NCBI RefSeq assembly: GCF_021129215.1
Contig: NZ_JAJOLP010000001.1
Coordinates: 3,596,001-3,660,000, forward strand
Source: Agromyces sp. S2-1-8
GTDB taxonomy: Bacteria > Actinomycetota > Actinomycetes > Actinomycetales > Microbacteriaceae
DNA: 64,000 nt
Reading direction: 5' to 3'
How positions within the stretch are numbered: the first letter of the stretch is position 1; every line of letters starts with the position of its first letter. The notes under the pieces were generated by a model. It did not search any database. It was not told where the DNA came from and was given only the letters and a program-made list of their open reading frames with translations. This document shows positions 28,021 through 50,994 of this stretch, one piece after another. The translations under genes were made by a program, and so were the position numbers.

Positions 28021-28068
28021 GAACGAGGATGCCTCGTGCCGCACCTGCGGCACGAGGCATCCTCGTTC
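28021..28068 (+). terminator. Very long terminator hairpin after the surface protein gene
   Basis: GAACGAGGATGCCTCGTGCCGC (28021-28042) and its exact complement (28047-28068) form a 22-bp perfect stem with loop ACCT, 24 bp after the stop. It also truncates the end of the decayed dioxygenase on the other strand. Confidence 0.9.
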
Positions 28069-45321: not shown

Positions 45322-47247
45322 ATGCATCGTCGCATCGCGACACTCGCAGTGGCCGCGGTCACCGCGGCGCTCGCCGTCTCGGCCATCGTCCCCGCGCATG
45401 CGGCGACCGAGTCGACGCCGATCGCACAGGTCACCGGGCCGCAGCTCGCGGCGTCGTGGACGCCGCCGCTGAGCACGAGGGGCCGGTACATCGTCGACGC
45501 CGACGGCGACCGATTCAAGCTCGAGTCCGCCAACTGGGACGGCGCACAGGGCCATTGGAACGGCAGCGGTGACAAGAACGACCCGGCCAACCACAACAGC
45601 GGCATGAGCTACGACATCCCCATGGGGCTCGACCGCGTGCCGATGGCGACGCTGATGAGCGACTTCCACGGACTCGGGCTCAACAGCATCCGGCTGTCGT
45701 ACTCGAACGAGATGCTCGGAATGACCACCCCAGTGCCCGACGTCGCCGTGGCGGCGAACCCCTCGCTGAAGGGCAAGACCCCGCTGCAGGTCTTCGACGC
45801 GGTGGTCGACGCCCTCACGGCCGACGGCTTCGCGGTGATCCTCAACAACCACACCACGACGTCGCGCTGGTGCTGCGGCGCCGACGACGGCAACTCGAAG
45901 TGGTACAGCAGCCAGACCACGGAGAAGTGGATCAGCGACTGGGTGATGCTGACCGAGCGCTACGAGGACAACCCCCGCGTCGTGGGCATGGACCTCCGCA
46001 ACGAGGTCCGCCGCGACGTCTGGAACGACCCGAACTGGGGCATGGGCGACGGCAACGATCTCTACCAGGCGTTCCAGAAGGCCGGCGTCGCCATCCAGCA
46101 GGCGAACCCCGACGTGCTCGTCATCATGGAGGGCATCAACTGGCAGGGCATCCCGCTCGACGGCTTCTTCCACGACCGGCCGCACCTCAAGCCCGTCGCG
46201 AACCTCTCGAACGCGCTCCCCTACCCCGACAAGCTCGTCTACGCGGCGCACATCTACGCCTACACGGGGCCGAAGCACACGGGTGCGACGGGGCTCGGCG
46301 AGACCCACGACCCCCGCTACCGCGACCTCACCCAGAGCGAGCTCGTGGCCGAGGTGAACCGGGCCGCCGCGTACGTCAATACGGCGGGCCAGCATTACAC
46401 CGCCCCCGTGTGGTTCAGCGAGTTCGGCATCGGCCACGCCGCCGACACCGGCGCGCTCGACAAGGCCTGGTGGGTGAACTTCACCGACATCCTGATCGCG
46501 AACGACAGCGACTTCGCGGCGTGGCCGCTCGTGACGCAGGCCGATGCCGCCGGGAACTTCGCCGACGGCTACTCGCTGCTCGCCTACAAGCCCGACGGCA
46601 CGAAGCTCAGCATCGCCGACGACTGGCGATACCCGCAGTGGGTGAAGCTCGTGAACGCGAACGGCAAGACCGGCCCCGTGGCCTCCGCGCCGCGCTGGAA
46701 CATGATCGGCAGCGGCAGCTTCGTCGACAGTCAGTCGTCGCTGCGCATGCTGCAGGCGGGCGACTGGTCGCCGGGCCAGTGGAAGGGCACCTGCCCCGAC
46801 AGCCAGCGCCTGCAGGGCATCGCGCGGAGCACCAACCGGGGCCTCTGCACCGACATCGGCGGCATCGCCACTTCGAACCCGCGCGTGCAGAGCGGCGAGG
46901 GCAACATCACGAACGACTGGGCCCCGGGGTACAGCAAGCTGCAGTGCAACCCGGGCGAGGTCGCCGTCGGCTACAGCCTCGGCACCGGCACCGGTACGAA
47001 GGCCGCGATGTGGAAGCTCGCCTGCGCGACGAGCACCACGGCGCTGCCGGCGAGCCAGGGCCGCCTGATCTGGTTCGACCAGGGCGACAACCGCCCGGCG
47101 GGCGGCGGCTCAACCGCCAGCGACTGGGCGCCCGGCAACTACAAGGGCCAGTGCAAGGACACCGAGTACATCGCGGGCGTTGCCTTCACCTACAACTGGA
47201 ACCACGGCGGCGTGCCCGACGCGCTGCTCTGCAAGCCGCTGACCTGA
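45322..47247 (+). CDS. Secreted glycoside hydrolase family 5 protein with C-terminal Cys repeats
   Basis: Predicted 641 residues: signal peptide (1-27, ending PAHA), GH5 domain (about 50-450) with the acid/base Glu in DLRNEV (Glu228) and the nucleophile in WFSEFGI (Glu367). The C-terminal 190 residues contain three repeats, each with DW(S/A)PG, a following Cys about 10 residues on and another Cys near the end. I know of no named domain for them. GH5 covers endo-beta-mannanase, endoglucanase and other activities; the neighbours point to mannan or glucomannan. GGGAGG precedes ATG. It is a direct target of the LacI-type operator above. Confidence 0.85.
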   Translation: MHRRIATLAVAAVTAALAVSAIVPAHAATESTPIAQVTGPQLAASWTPPLSTRGRYIVDADGDRFKLESANWDGAQGHWNGSGDKNDPANHNSGMSYDIPMGLDRVPMATLMSDFHGLGLNSIRLSYSNEMLGMTTPVPDVAVAANPSLKGKTPLQVFDAVVDALTADGFAVILNNHTTTSRWCCGADDGNSKWYSSQTTEKWISDWVMLTERYEDNPRVVGMDLRNEVRRDVWNDPNWGMGDGNDLYQAFQKAGVAIQQANPDVLVIMEGINWQGIPLDGFFHDRPHLKPVANLSNALPYPDKLVYAAHIYAYTGPKHTGATGLGETHDPRYRDLTQSELVAEVNRAAAYVNTAGQHYTAPVWFSEFGIGHAADTGALDKAWWVNFTDILIANDSDFAAWPLVTQADAAGNFADGYSLLAYKPDGTKLSIADDWRYPQWVKLVNANGKTGPVASAPRWNMIGSGSFVDSQSSLRMLQAGDWSPGQWKGTCPDSQRLQGIARSTNRGLCTDIGGIATSNPRVQSGEGNITNDWAPGYSKLQCNPGEVAVGYSLGTGTGTKAAMWKLACATSTTALPASQGRLIWFDQGDNRPAGGGSTASDWAPGNYKGQCKDTEYIAGVAFTYNWNHGGVPDALLCKPLT

Positions 47248-47263
47248 TCGGCGGACGACGAAC

Positions 47264-47293
47264 GGGGCCGGGTCGCGATCGCGACCCGGCCCC
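47264..47293. terminator. 30-bp palindromic terminator after GH5 (identical to the one at 50944)
   Basis: A perfect 30-bp palindrome whose arms are GGGGCCGGGTCGCGA and TCGCGACCCGGCCCC. The same 30 bases occur after the GH84 gene at 50944-50973, so that gene is bracketed by two copies. Confidence 0.9.
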
Positions 47294-47425
47294 TTCATTC
47301 CGCCCCGGCTGCTCGGCCGGCGTCCACGCGTGCCCGGTGAGACCAGCGGGCCGTTCCCGGCATCGAGAGCGAATCGGCCGCCGACGCTTGACGCGAGACT
47401 TCGCGATCGCCTAGGTTCGACTCCA

Positions 47426-47441
47426 ACTTAGTTTACTAAGT
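47426..47441. promoter_or_regulatory. Palindrome upstream of GH84, unknown regulator
   Basis: ACTTAGT-TT-ACTAAGT, perfect 7-bp arms, 141 bp before the GH84 start. It is unlike the ACGYAAAC sites of the neighbouring cluster, so another regulator (a ROK- or GntR-type protein is possible) may act here. Confidence 0.5.
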
Positions 47442-47581
47442 CAACAAAGTCACCAGCGCGAAGCCCTCCAGCGGCGACGCGTTCACAACTTTCACACTCC
47501 TCGGATTCGTCGCCGGTGACGAGTCACCGCGACGGATCAGAGGCAACACCGACCCACACCCTGGGTCGAGGAGGCTGGATG

Positions 47582-50500
47582 ATGCGCCCGATAGCAGGCC
47601 GCAAAATGATGCTCGGAACGGTGCTGATGTCAGCGTTGACGCTGTCATTGCTTTCCCCCTGGGTTGCGAACGCGGAGCCGTCCGCAACGCGGCCGTGCAA
47701 GTACGACCTGTATCCCAAGGTCCACAGCTGCACCTCTGGGCCGAGAAGCATGGCGATTCCGGAACAGACGACGATCAATCTCGTCGTCGACGATGGCGTC
47801 GGCCCCAACACCGCCGCCAAAGCGGAGGCACTGTTCGAGACGCGTGGCTTCGCGGTGACGACGGCGAGCCCGGACTCATCGCGGCGCGACATCGACGTTC
47901 TGGTGGGTATCGACGACGACGAGGGCGCCGATGACGCCTACCTCGACGGGACGTACGACCCGGCTCGTTCAATTGCCAATGACGACGGCTACGTACTCGA
48001 GATCAATGCCGCCGATCGGGTCGTCGCCATCGAGGGCAGGGACAACGACGCTGCGTTCTACGGCGTGACCACCCTCGATCAGATCCTCAGCCAGGCGGGC
48101 GTGGTCCTCCGCGACACACTGATCGAGGACTACGCGGACGTCAAGTTCCGGGGATTCATCGAGGGCTTCTATGGAACCCCCTGGTCGCACGAGAATCGGA
48201 AGGACCTCATGGTCTTCGGTGGCGATCACAAGATGAACTCCTACCTCTACGGACCGAAGAATGATCCCTACCACGCCGCCCGCTGGCGAGAGCCGTATCC
48301 CGCCGAGAAGCTTGCTGAACTGAAGGAGTTGGTCGACACGGGACGTGAAACCAACGTGCAGTTCGTCTGGGCGGCACACGTCGGCGGCAAGATCGACCTC
48401 GGCTCCGATGCGGATGTCCGAGCCCTCGAGGACAAGTTCGATCAGCTCTACGAAATCGGAGTCCGACAGTTCGCGATCTTCTTCGATGACGCCGCGACGA
48501 ACAACGATCAGTTGGTGAACTTCATCACCCGCATCGATCGCGAGTACATCAAGCCCAAGGGCGACGTCCGCCCCATCATCTTCTGCCCGCAGTACTACCG
48601 AAAAGACGGCGGCAGTCCAGCGACGATCAACTACCTGAAGAGCATCAGCCGTTTCCCGAAGGATGTGGAGATCATGTGGACCGGCGACAACGTGGTGTCG
48701 CCGGTCTCGCAGAGCGCCATCGACTGGGTGACGCAATACATCGACCGGCCCGTCTACATGTGGTGGAACTACCCGGTCAACGATCTCGGGCGCGCCGGAT
48801 ATGTCCATATGGGACCGTCGAAGGGCCTGCACGCGGGCGTGGAGAACGTCTCCGGCTTCGCCGCGAACCCGATGAATCAGGCCCAGGCATCGAAGGTCTC
48901 CCTCTTCAGCGTCGCGGACTACACGTGGAACACCGACGATTACAATGCAGACCTGAGTTGGCAGGCCTCGTTCGCCCGCATCATCCCGGACGATGCGACG
49001 GCGGCCCGGGCGTTGCGGATCTTCTCGGCCCATGCCTCAGCCGGCCTGAATCCGTTCGACACCCCGGAGTCCGCCTATCTGCTGCCGGAGCTGGCCTCCT
49101 TCAAACAACTGCTCGCTGCCGACGGTGAGGTCGACGAATCAGGCGCGACCCTGATCCGATCCTTCGACGAGATCAGTAGCGCGATCGACACGCTCGAGGC
49201 GTACGACGGATCGAACGGCATCTCCGGAGAAGTGGGGCCTTGGCTCGACGAGCTCAAACGGATCGCGCAAGTGAGCAGGGCCACGGTTCAGGGAATCCTC
49301 GACCTGGACGACCTCACTCCGGATGATCCGGCGTCGATCCGAGCTGCGATGACCCTCATCTCGGACCAGCGAGCCGGCCTCAAGGCCGCAGTCTCGTCTT
49401 CGCCGAAGGTGATTGCGCAGAAGGAGCTCGTTCCCTTCATCGAGGAGATCCTCTCGCTCGTCGAGATTCGACTCATGAACGCGCTCTCGCTGCCGCCCAA
49501 GATGCATGGCTTCGGAAGCACGACCTTGGACTACCCGAAGATGCTGGACGGCGACCTGTCCACAGCGGCCGGATCGGGCGCATTCGTGTCCCGTGGAGCG
49601 TACTTCGGTGTGAATCTCGGCAGAACGACGCGCATCGACAACGTGCTCATCAGCATGGACGCCAAGAACTACTACAAGCAGGGCGTGCTCGAGGCATCGA
49701 TCGACAACGCCACCTGGTTCGAAGTGGCCGGTTTCGACAGCAGTTCGGTCTCCGCTCGGCAACTCGACGTCGAAGCACAGTTCCTGCGCTACCGCGCCAC
49801 CGACGAGTTCACGGATGAGGTCACCGGCTCGCCCAATCGCGGGTTGTCGGTCAAGGAGTTCCGCGTGAACGTGGAAGACCCTGCCGAGGTCTTCACGAAC
49901 GTGGCCGGTCTGCAGGGTCGTGCCCTCTCCTTCGAAGGATCGACCGTCGCGCTGCGAGGCTCCGGCGATCTCACCGTGGAGCCGGGAGAGTACTTCGGCT
50001 TCCGCTTCAACAAGCTCAAGAACGCGCATTCGCTGAGGATCGACGATGACCTGAGGTTCCTGAGCGCCGAGTTCTCGACCGACGGACGTGCATGGACCGC
50101 GATGAACTGGTCGGATCCGCGCATCAACGCAGCGACGTACATTCGCGTGGTGAACACGTCGACGGTCGCGCAGGACATCGCGCTACAGGAGCTCTCCGTT
50201 GCACTCGGCGGCTCCATCCGCCCCACGGCGAGCGCGCACAACGTGAGCGTCTACTCCGGAAAGGTCGAGAACATCGTCGACGGCGACCCGGTCACGTCCT
50301 TCTGGCTCCGAGGGGCGGGCGGTGACCGGCACTTCGTCTTCGATCTGGGACGCGAAATCCCGGTCTACGACCTGTGGATCAGATCGGAGAAGGACCTCGT
50401 GTCTTCGGGCCGCATCGAGTTGAGTTCTGACGGGACGAACTGGCGTGATCCGGTCACGTTCGCCAAGGCCGGGGCCGACAACGTCGTGAAGCTCGGCGGC

Positions 50501-50932
50501 GAGTCGGCTCGCTACGTGAAGCTGACGGACGGCGTGCAGAGCAACTGGCTCAAGGTGCTGGACGTCGCGGTCAATTCGACTGTCGACGAAGACACCACGG
50601 TGCTCACCGGTGATCCGGGCGGCCTCGAGAGGCTGCTCGATCTCGACCTCTTCACCTCCGTCGACGTGGGCGACACGGCCGGCGCATTGACGTACAGCAA
50701 CGTCAACACGCCCGACGCGACCAACCTCATCCTGGTCAAGGACGAAGAATCGGAGGTCGACCTAAAGGTCAAGCCGGCTGACGGTCAGGAGTGGATCGAT
50801 GCGGGGACACTGACCGGCGGTTATGTCAATGTCGATCTGAGCAGGTTCGGGGAGATCTCCGAGTTCAAGCTGCAATGGACCTCGGGCTCGGGACTGCGGC
50901 TGAACGAGTTGTTCGTCGGGACGCTCGGCTAG
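47582..50932 (+). CDS. Secreted GH84 beta-N-acetylglucosaminidase with F5/8-type C-terminal domains
   Basis: Predicted 1116 residues: a signal peptide ending VANA (about residue 31), an N-terminal GH20-like accessory domain, then the GH84 catalytic core (about 185-480) with FRGFIEGFYGTPW and the catalytic Asp pair in FAIFFDDAATNN (about 302-303). The rest (about 620-1116) is beta-rich with several F5/8-type C (CBM32-like) domains. It removes GlcNAc from O-GlcNAc or hyaluronan/mucin-type glycans. The gene uses TTG, ATT, AAT and GAT codons far more than its neighbours and is flanked by identical terminators. ATG 47582 lies 7 bases after GGAGG; 47579 is also possible. Strong sign of horizontal acquisition. 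Confidence 0.85.
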   Translation: MRPIAGRKMMLGTVLMSALTLSLLSPWVANAEPSATRPCKYDLYPKVHSCTSGPRSMAIPEQTTINLVVDDGVGPNTAAKAEALFETRGFAVTTASPDSSRRDIDVLVGIDDDEGADDAYLDGTYDPARSIANDDGYVLEINAADRVVAIEGRDNDAAFYGVTTLDQILSQAGVVLRDTLIEDYADVKFRGFIEGFYGTPWSHENRKDLMVFGGDHKMNSYLYGPKNDPYHAARWREPYPAEKLAELKELVDTGRETNVQFVWAAHVGGKIDLGSDADVRALEDKFDQLYEIGVRQFAIFFDDAATNNDQLVNFITRIDREYIKPKGDVRPIIFCPQYYRKDGGSPATINYLKSISRFPKDVEIMWTGDNVVSPVSQSAIDWVTQYIDRPVYMWWNYPVNDLGRAGYVHMGPSKGLHAGVENVSGFAANPMNQAQASKVSLFSVADYTWNTDDYNADLSWQASFARIIPDDATAARALRIFSAHASAGLNPFDTPESAYLLPELASFKQLLAADGEVDESGATLIRSFDEISSAIDTLEAYDGSNGISGEVGPWLDELKRIAQVSRATVQGILDLDDLTPDDPASIRAAMTLISDQRAGLKAAVSSSPKVIAQKELVPFIEEILSLVEIRLMNALSLPPKMHGFGSTTLDYPKMLDGDLSTAAGSGAFVSRGAYFGVNLGRTTRIDNVLISMDAKNYYKQGVLEASIDNATWFEVAGFDSSSVSARQLDVEAQFLRYRATDEFTDEVTGSPNRGLSVKEFRVNVEDPAEVFTNVAGLQGRALSFEGSTVALRGSGDLTVEPGEYFGFRFNKLKNAHSLRIDDDLRFLSAEFSTDGRAWTAMNWSDPRINAATYIRVVNTSTVAQDIALQELSVALGGSIRPTASAHNVSVYSGKVENIVDGDPVTSFWLRGAGGDRHFVFDLGREIPVYDLWIRSEKDLVSSGRIELSSDGTNWRDPVTFAKAGADNVVKLGGESARYVKLTDGVQSNWLKVLDVAVNSTVDEDTTVLTGDPGGLERLLDLDLFTSVDVGDTAGALTYSNVNTPDATNLILVKDEESEVDLKVKPADGQEWIDAGTLTGGYVNVDLSRFGEISEFKLQWTSGSGLRLNELFVGTLG

Positions 50933-50943
50933 GAACGACGAAA

Positions 50944-50973
50944 GGGGCCGGGTCGCGATCGCGACCCGGCCCC
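50944..50973. terminator. 30-bp palindromic terminator after GH84 (identical to 47264-47293)
   Basis: The same 30-bp palindrome as behind GH5, at 12 bp after the GH84 stop and 22 bp from the convergent metallophosphoesterase stop. It can terminate both. Confidence 0.9.
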
Positions 50974-50994
50974 TGCTCGTTCGGGCGTGAGAGG

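Follow-up and report, generated by a model that had tools for sequence, protein, structure and literature searches.

The GH84 locus and its paired palindromes

The window, a stretch of 64,000 nucleotides of the Agromyces sp. S2-1-8 genome, carries a gene for a GH84 beta-N-acetylglucosaminidase between a GH5 gene and a metallophosphoesterase gene, with a copy of the same palindrome on either side of it. The features of the locus are as follows.

45322–47247, plus strand: GH5 (cellulase-family) gene, the left neighbour (Pfam PF00150), which adjoins the metallophosphoesterase gene in 7 relatives
47255–47294, no strand assigned: predicted terminator, copy 1, containing the palindrome 47264–47293 (from the repeat, genome search and fold)
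47295–47386, no strand assigned: segment of ~92 bp after copy 1, for which the 60 genus genomes gave no convincing match
47387–47450, plus strand: predicted genus-type promoter with operator ACTTAGTTTACTAAGT (47426–47441), arranged as at the resident GH84 genes
47579–50932, plus strand: GH84 beta-N-acetylglucosaminidase gene (1117 aa) with GH20b, NAGidase and F5/8C domains (Pfam)
50935–50974, no strand assigned: predicted terminator, copy 2, containing a perfect palindrome (50943–50974), 10 bases past the GH84 stop codon
50995–52161, minus strand: metallophosphoesterase gene (Pfam PF00149), lying to the right and convergent with both GH5 and GH84

Identical perfect 30-bp palindromes were read at 47264–47293 and 50944–50973, where the initial annotation had placed them, and are part of a direct repeat of 40 bp in which 39 of 40 positions are identical (47255–47294 against 50935–50974). 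No further copy was found in the 4.1-Mb genome at up to 3 mismatches, and a whole-genome search with the outer stem around any 12-base centre gave no third place. A dispersed repeat or REP-like element was ruled out, there being only two copies in this genome and one or none in the other surveyed genomes. Among hairpin pairs spaced closer than 15 kb, of which this genome gave 72 in 464 kb and its relatives 97 in 509 kb, the two copies were the sole identical pair; across the ~970 kb scanned, no other duplicated hairpin pair was identical, the next best (0.72 alike) being found in G049. In that genome, two terminator-like hairpins lie 2.4 kb apart (L080, positions 11550 and 13992), similar and not identical, possibly an older case of like kind. 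Hairpins with GGATGCCTCG arms form a separate group, accounting for 6 of 62 hairpins in the 464 kb of this genome (L047 11596, L052 4250, L057 11833, L059 2330, L061 10608 and window position 28021), and are perhaps a repeated palindrome family of the genus.

The terminator and its junction in related genomes

In RNA folding, copy 1 (47250–47305) gave −45.2 kcal/mol with a z-score of −6.9, and copy 2 folded strongly on both strands. The hairpin is stable, lies between convergent genes and shows a conserved stem and a variable centre across species, as expected of a bidirectional terminator. No uninterrupted U tract follows the stem, the tails reading TTCATTCC and TGCTCGTT, and a consensus terminator scan called neither copy. 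From fold and position we infer the palindrome to be a bidirectional terminator native to this spot between two convergent genes, GH5 and metallophosphoesterase, at which transcription from both sides would stop.

Eight of the 60 genus genomes were found to have the metallophosphoesterase gene, and the 7 besides this genome were all fetched for comparison of the junction. In every one of them GH5 directly abuts the metallophosphoesterase gene, with one terminator between the two and no GH84 gene there. The pattern GGGGCCGGGTCGC-N(2-8)-GCGACCCGGCCCC likewise occurred in 8 of the 60 genomes: each of the 7 relatives had one copy of the stem, always at the GH5/metallophosphoesterase junction, and this genome alone had two. 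Among 398 family genomes, a set including 10 of this genus and none of the 7 relatives, the stem was present in this genome only (0/388 in other genera). The palindrome centre differs among the relatives (AGTC, TGTT, AGCA, AGCA, AGCT, AGTT and GACT) and is GATC in both copies here. Because the stem is single at the junction in relatives and occurs here in two copies with the same GATC centre, the terminator is native to this locus and was duplicated in this strain; since the relatives have a single stem and a junction devoid of GH84, the arrangement is a real insertion at the terminator of the two genes, with a duplication of ~40 bp. The initial annotation had proposed just such an insertion, duplicating the terminator, and had named presence of the gene at this place in all relatives, with matching phylogeny, as the finding that would speak against it; the empty site in 7/7 relatives, with one terminator each, bears the proposal out. 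Two local irregularities were seen in other genomes: in G045 (L025) the junction contains an N and a repeated GH5 end, probably an assembly join, and in G008 (L020) the metallophosphoesterase reading frame is reported with one internal TGA.

The flanks inform on the extent of the duplication. The sequence ACGACGAA, left of copy 2 and inside the insert, resembles the native left flank more closely than do all 218 flanks of background hairpins, so the duplication reaches leftward beyond the palindrome. To the right of copy 1, on the insert side, likeness to the native flanks did not exceed chance, with 15 of the 218 background flanks as good. The base preceding the palindrome is C in copy 1 and A both in copy 2 and in 7/7 relatives, so the present-day copy 1 is not the source of copy 2.

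Composition, ancestry and promoter of the GH84 gene

The catalytic NAGidase domain (PF07555) was matched with an E value of 5.1e-106 over profile positions 1–292 of 295, and the motif FFDDAATNN aligned with the DDA of 6pwi, so that the paired Asp, catalytic in GH84 enzymes, is present. By this domain match and the alignable Asp-Asp motif the protein resembles the GH84 O-GlcNAcase family (NagJ, BT_4395 and human O-GlcNAcase), from which it differs in its C-terminal modules. The enzyme is predicted to be secreted and to remove terminal GlcNAc residues.

The gene had been described as foreign-looking, with lower GC and different codon use than its neighbours. Its GC content is 0.624 against a mean of 0.712, a value as low being found in 3 of 188 long background open reading frames (ORFs), and the codons TTG, ATT and AAT are enriched (8.9, 4.5 and 10.7 per 1000 against 2.4, 1.0 and 1.1). 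GC3 and codon score were only mildly low, with 30/188 and 35/188 ORFs, respectively, as low; all these ranks are rough because a simple GC3 rule served to call the background ORFs, some of which are false. The compositional part of the description thus stands for GC, a clear outlier, and for the three codons, whereas codon usage as a whole is just mildly unusual and not strongly foreign.

Foreign descent was better seen in comparisons of the protein. No full-length match was found in the 60 genus genomes other than its own, and at E ≤ 1e-150 the only matches in 398 family and 394 class genomes (one in each set) were to the genome itself. One pattern-based scan of a genome collection (~85,000 species; detecting close relatives only) gave as nearest relative a Streptomyces endocoffeicus protein with 70% identity over nearly the full length, followed by a Virgibacillus protein with 29% identity; the genus's own GH84 is ~35% identical to the insert protein. 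In a tree of the catalytic region the insert fell into one group with the Streptomyces and Virgibacillus sequences (support 100/99), away from the GH84 genes of the genus itself, among which the places of L011 and L012 are unsure because of long branches. By these comparisons the GH84 ORF is evidently of foreign descent, as initially proposed. The Streptomyces gene is itself GC-poor (0.557) beside GC-richer flanks and may therefore be foreign in its own host too. No like palindromes were found in a search around it. Carriage as phage or plasmid cargo was ruled out, as plasmids, phages and viral contigs contained no close GH84. In Virgibacillus halodenitrificans two GH84 copies stand in tandem (L032, 6001–9417 and 10075–13422).

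The region upstream of the ORF is of another kind. At 47387–47450 the elements TTGACG and TAGGTT are followed by operator ACTTAGTTTACTAAGT, whose exact 14-mer CTTAGTTTACTAAG occurs at two places in this genome, upstream of the insert GH84 and upstream of the resident GH84, the latter being divergent to an adjoining ROK-family regulator gene. At up to 3 mismatches, the operator was present at 10 of the 12 GH84 loci of resident type in the genus (missing at L011 and L012) and absent from 800 kb of sampled genome DNA; within 1 mismatch, the operator 19-mer was found in none of 195 sampled genomes of other genera, and at the Streptomyces GH84 locus no operator was found on the one strand searched. 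A weaker operator-like site lies upstream of a GH20 hexosaminidase gene in the same genome. The resident GH84 beside its ROK gene and the GH20 gene with its related operator (L064, 5281–6519; L066, 5481–8387) may form a ROK-controlled hexosaminidase regulon; a literature search on ROK operators of hexosaminidases in this family yielded nothing relevant. Over 45–48 bases the insert promoter shares 94% identity with the promoter of G026 and 93% with the one of the resident gene; it would have come either from the resident gene or, along with the ORF, from a genus member outside the sample. Neither the ~92 bp before the promoter nor the leader after it gave a convincing match. That the promoter-operator of a foreign GH84 gene is genus-type was unexpected. 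The ROK repressor beside the resident GH84 probably switches the insert along with other secreted hexosaminidases.

Origin and meaning of the arrangement

Our preferred reading, to which we assign a probability of about 0.72, is that a foreign GH84 ORF with a genus-type ROK-operator promoter was inserted at a native bidirectional terminator in an event that copied the terminator. A terminator would have stood between the convergent GH5 and metallophosphoesterase genes; the GH84 ORF with its promoter would have entered there, and the event would have copied the hairpin, so that GH5, GH84 and metallophosphoesterase would each still end at a full one. As no strain with an intermediate was found, the joining mechanism is one that we infer and have not seen; we favour illegitimate repair at the hairpin, or template switching there, either of which would duplicate it without a recombinase.

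Two other routes to the repeat appear less well supported than repair or template switching. One is that GH5 and its terminator were first duplicated in tandem and that the second GH5 later gave way to GH84 and its promoter, leaving the two terminators as the ends of the old tandem repeat. This predicts duplication toward the GH5 side and not demonstrably on the right, which matches the flank results, but it seems unlikely: no remnant of a second GH5 was found, the sequence from copy 1 to the GH84 start had no significant match elsewhere in the window, and the junctions of the 7 relatives showed no second GH5, the repeated GH5 end of G045 probably being an assembly join. Likewise, no donor segment matching the upstream DNA was found. 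The other route, a single crossover within the terminator integrating a circular molecule that bore GH84 and a like terminator, would yield the observed direct repeat on both sides, with cores made identical by crossover or conversion; we consider it improbable, given that the stem was found nowhere else in the genus or the sampled family, that the surroundings of the Streptomyces GH84 show no such repeat and that plasmid records hold no close GH84. The further idea in the initial annotation, that the palindrome is a landing site for cassettes, read here as a recombinase site, draws on perfect palindromes bracketing exactly one foreign gene and is hardly tenable, as the site is locus-specific, single in each genome and empty in 7/7 relatives, GH84 is the only gene of the insert, neither a recombinase gene nor several different cassettes at like sites were found, and a strong hairpin between convergent genes is where an ordinary terminator lies.

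The minimal mobile elements of Neisseria are variable single genes between conserved neighbours, acquired without mobility genes. The insert shares with them a single gene, conserved neighbours and the absence of mobility genes, and differs in that the gene is at the site in one strain only and the bracket is a duplicated terminator. Insertion of foreign genes without mobility genes is known: in homology-facilitated illegitimate recombination (PMC3240628) foreign DNA enters the chromosome, joined by homology at one end and illegitimately at the other. The present insertion resembles this process in the gain of foreign DNA with no recombinase in the insert, and differs in that a whole hairpin terminator is duplicated. 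A literature search, with few subscription papers within reach, returned no report of terminator duplication, of capture at terminators or of a duplicated terminator as a bracket.

With GH5, GH84 and metallophosphoesterase each ending at a predicted terminator hairpin, GH84 is probably insulated transcriptionally from both neighbours, and, standing between two terminator copies and behind a genus-type switch, the foreign gene seems to have been equipped with local on and off signals. The empty site in seven relatives makes this a clean case of a foreign gene with local-type control signals on both sides. A tentative extension, which we regard as rather doubtful, is that terminator hairpins are natural gene-capture sites, where breakage or fork stalling at the hairpin leaves an incoming gene with a copied terminator on either side. 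If so, copied terminators and a local-type promoter would make a ready-made transcription unit in few steps and without a mobile element. Were gene capture at such hairpins general, any genome could be searched for its signature, strain-specific genes flanked by duplicated terminators specific to the locus, and it would account for additions of new genes that leave the transcription of neighbours undisturbed.
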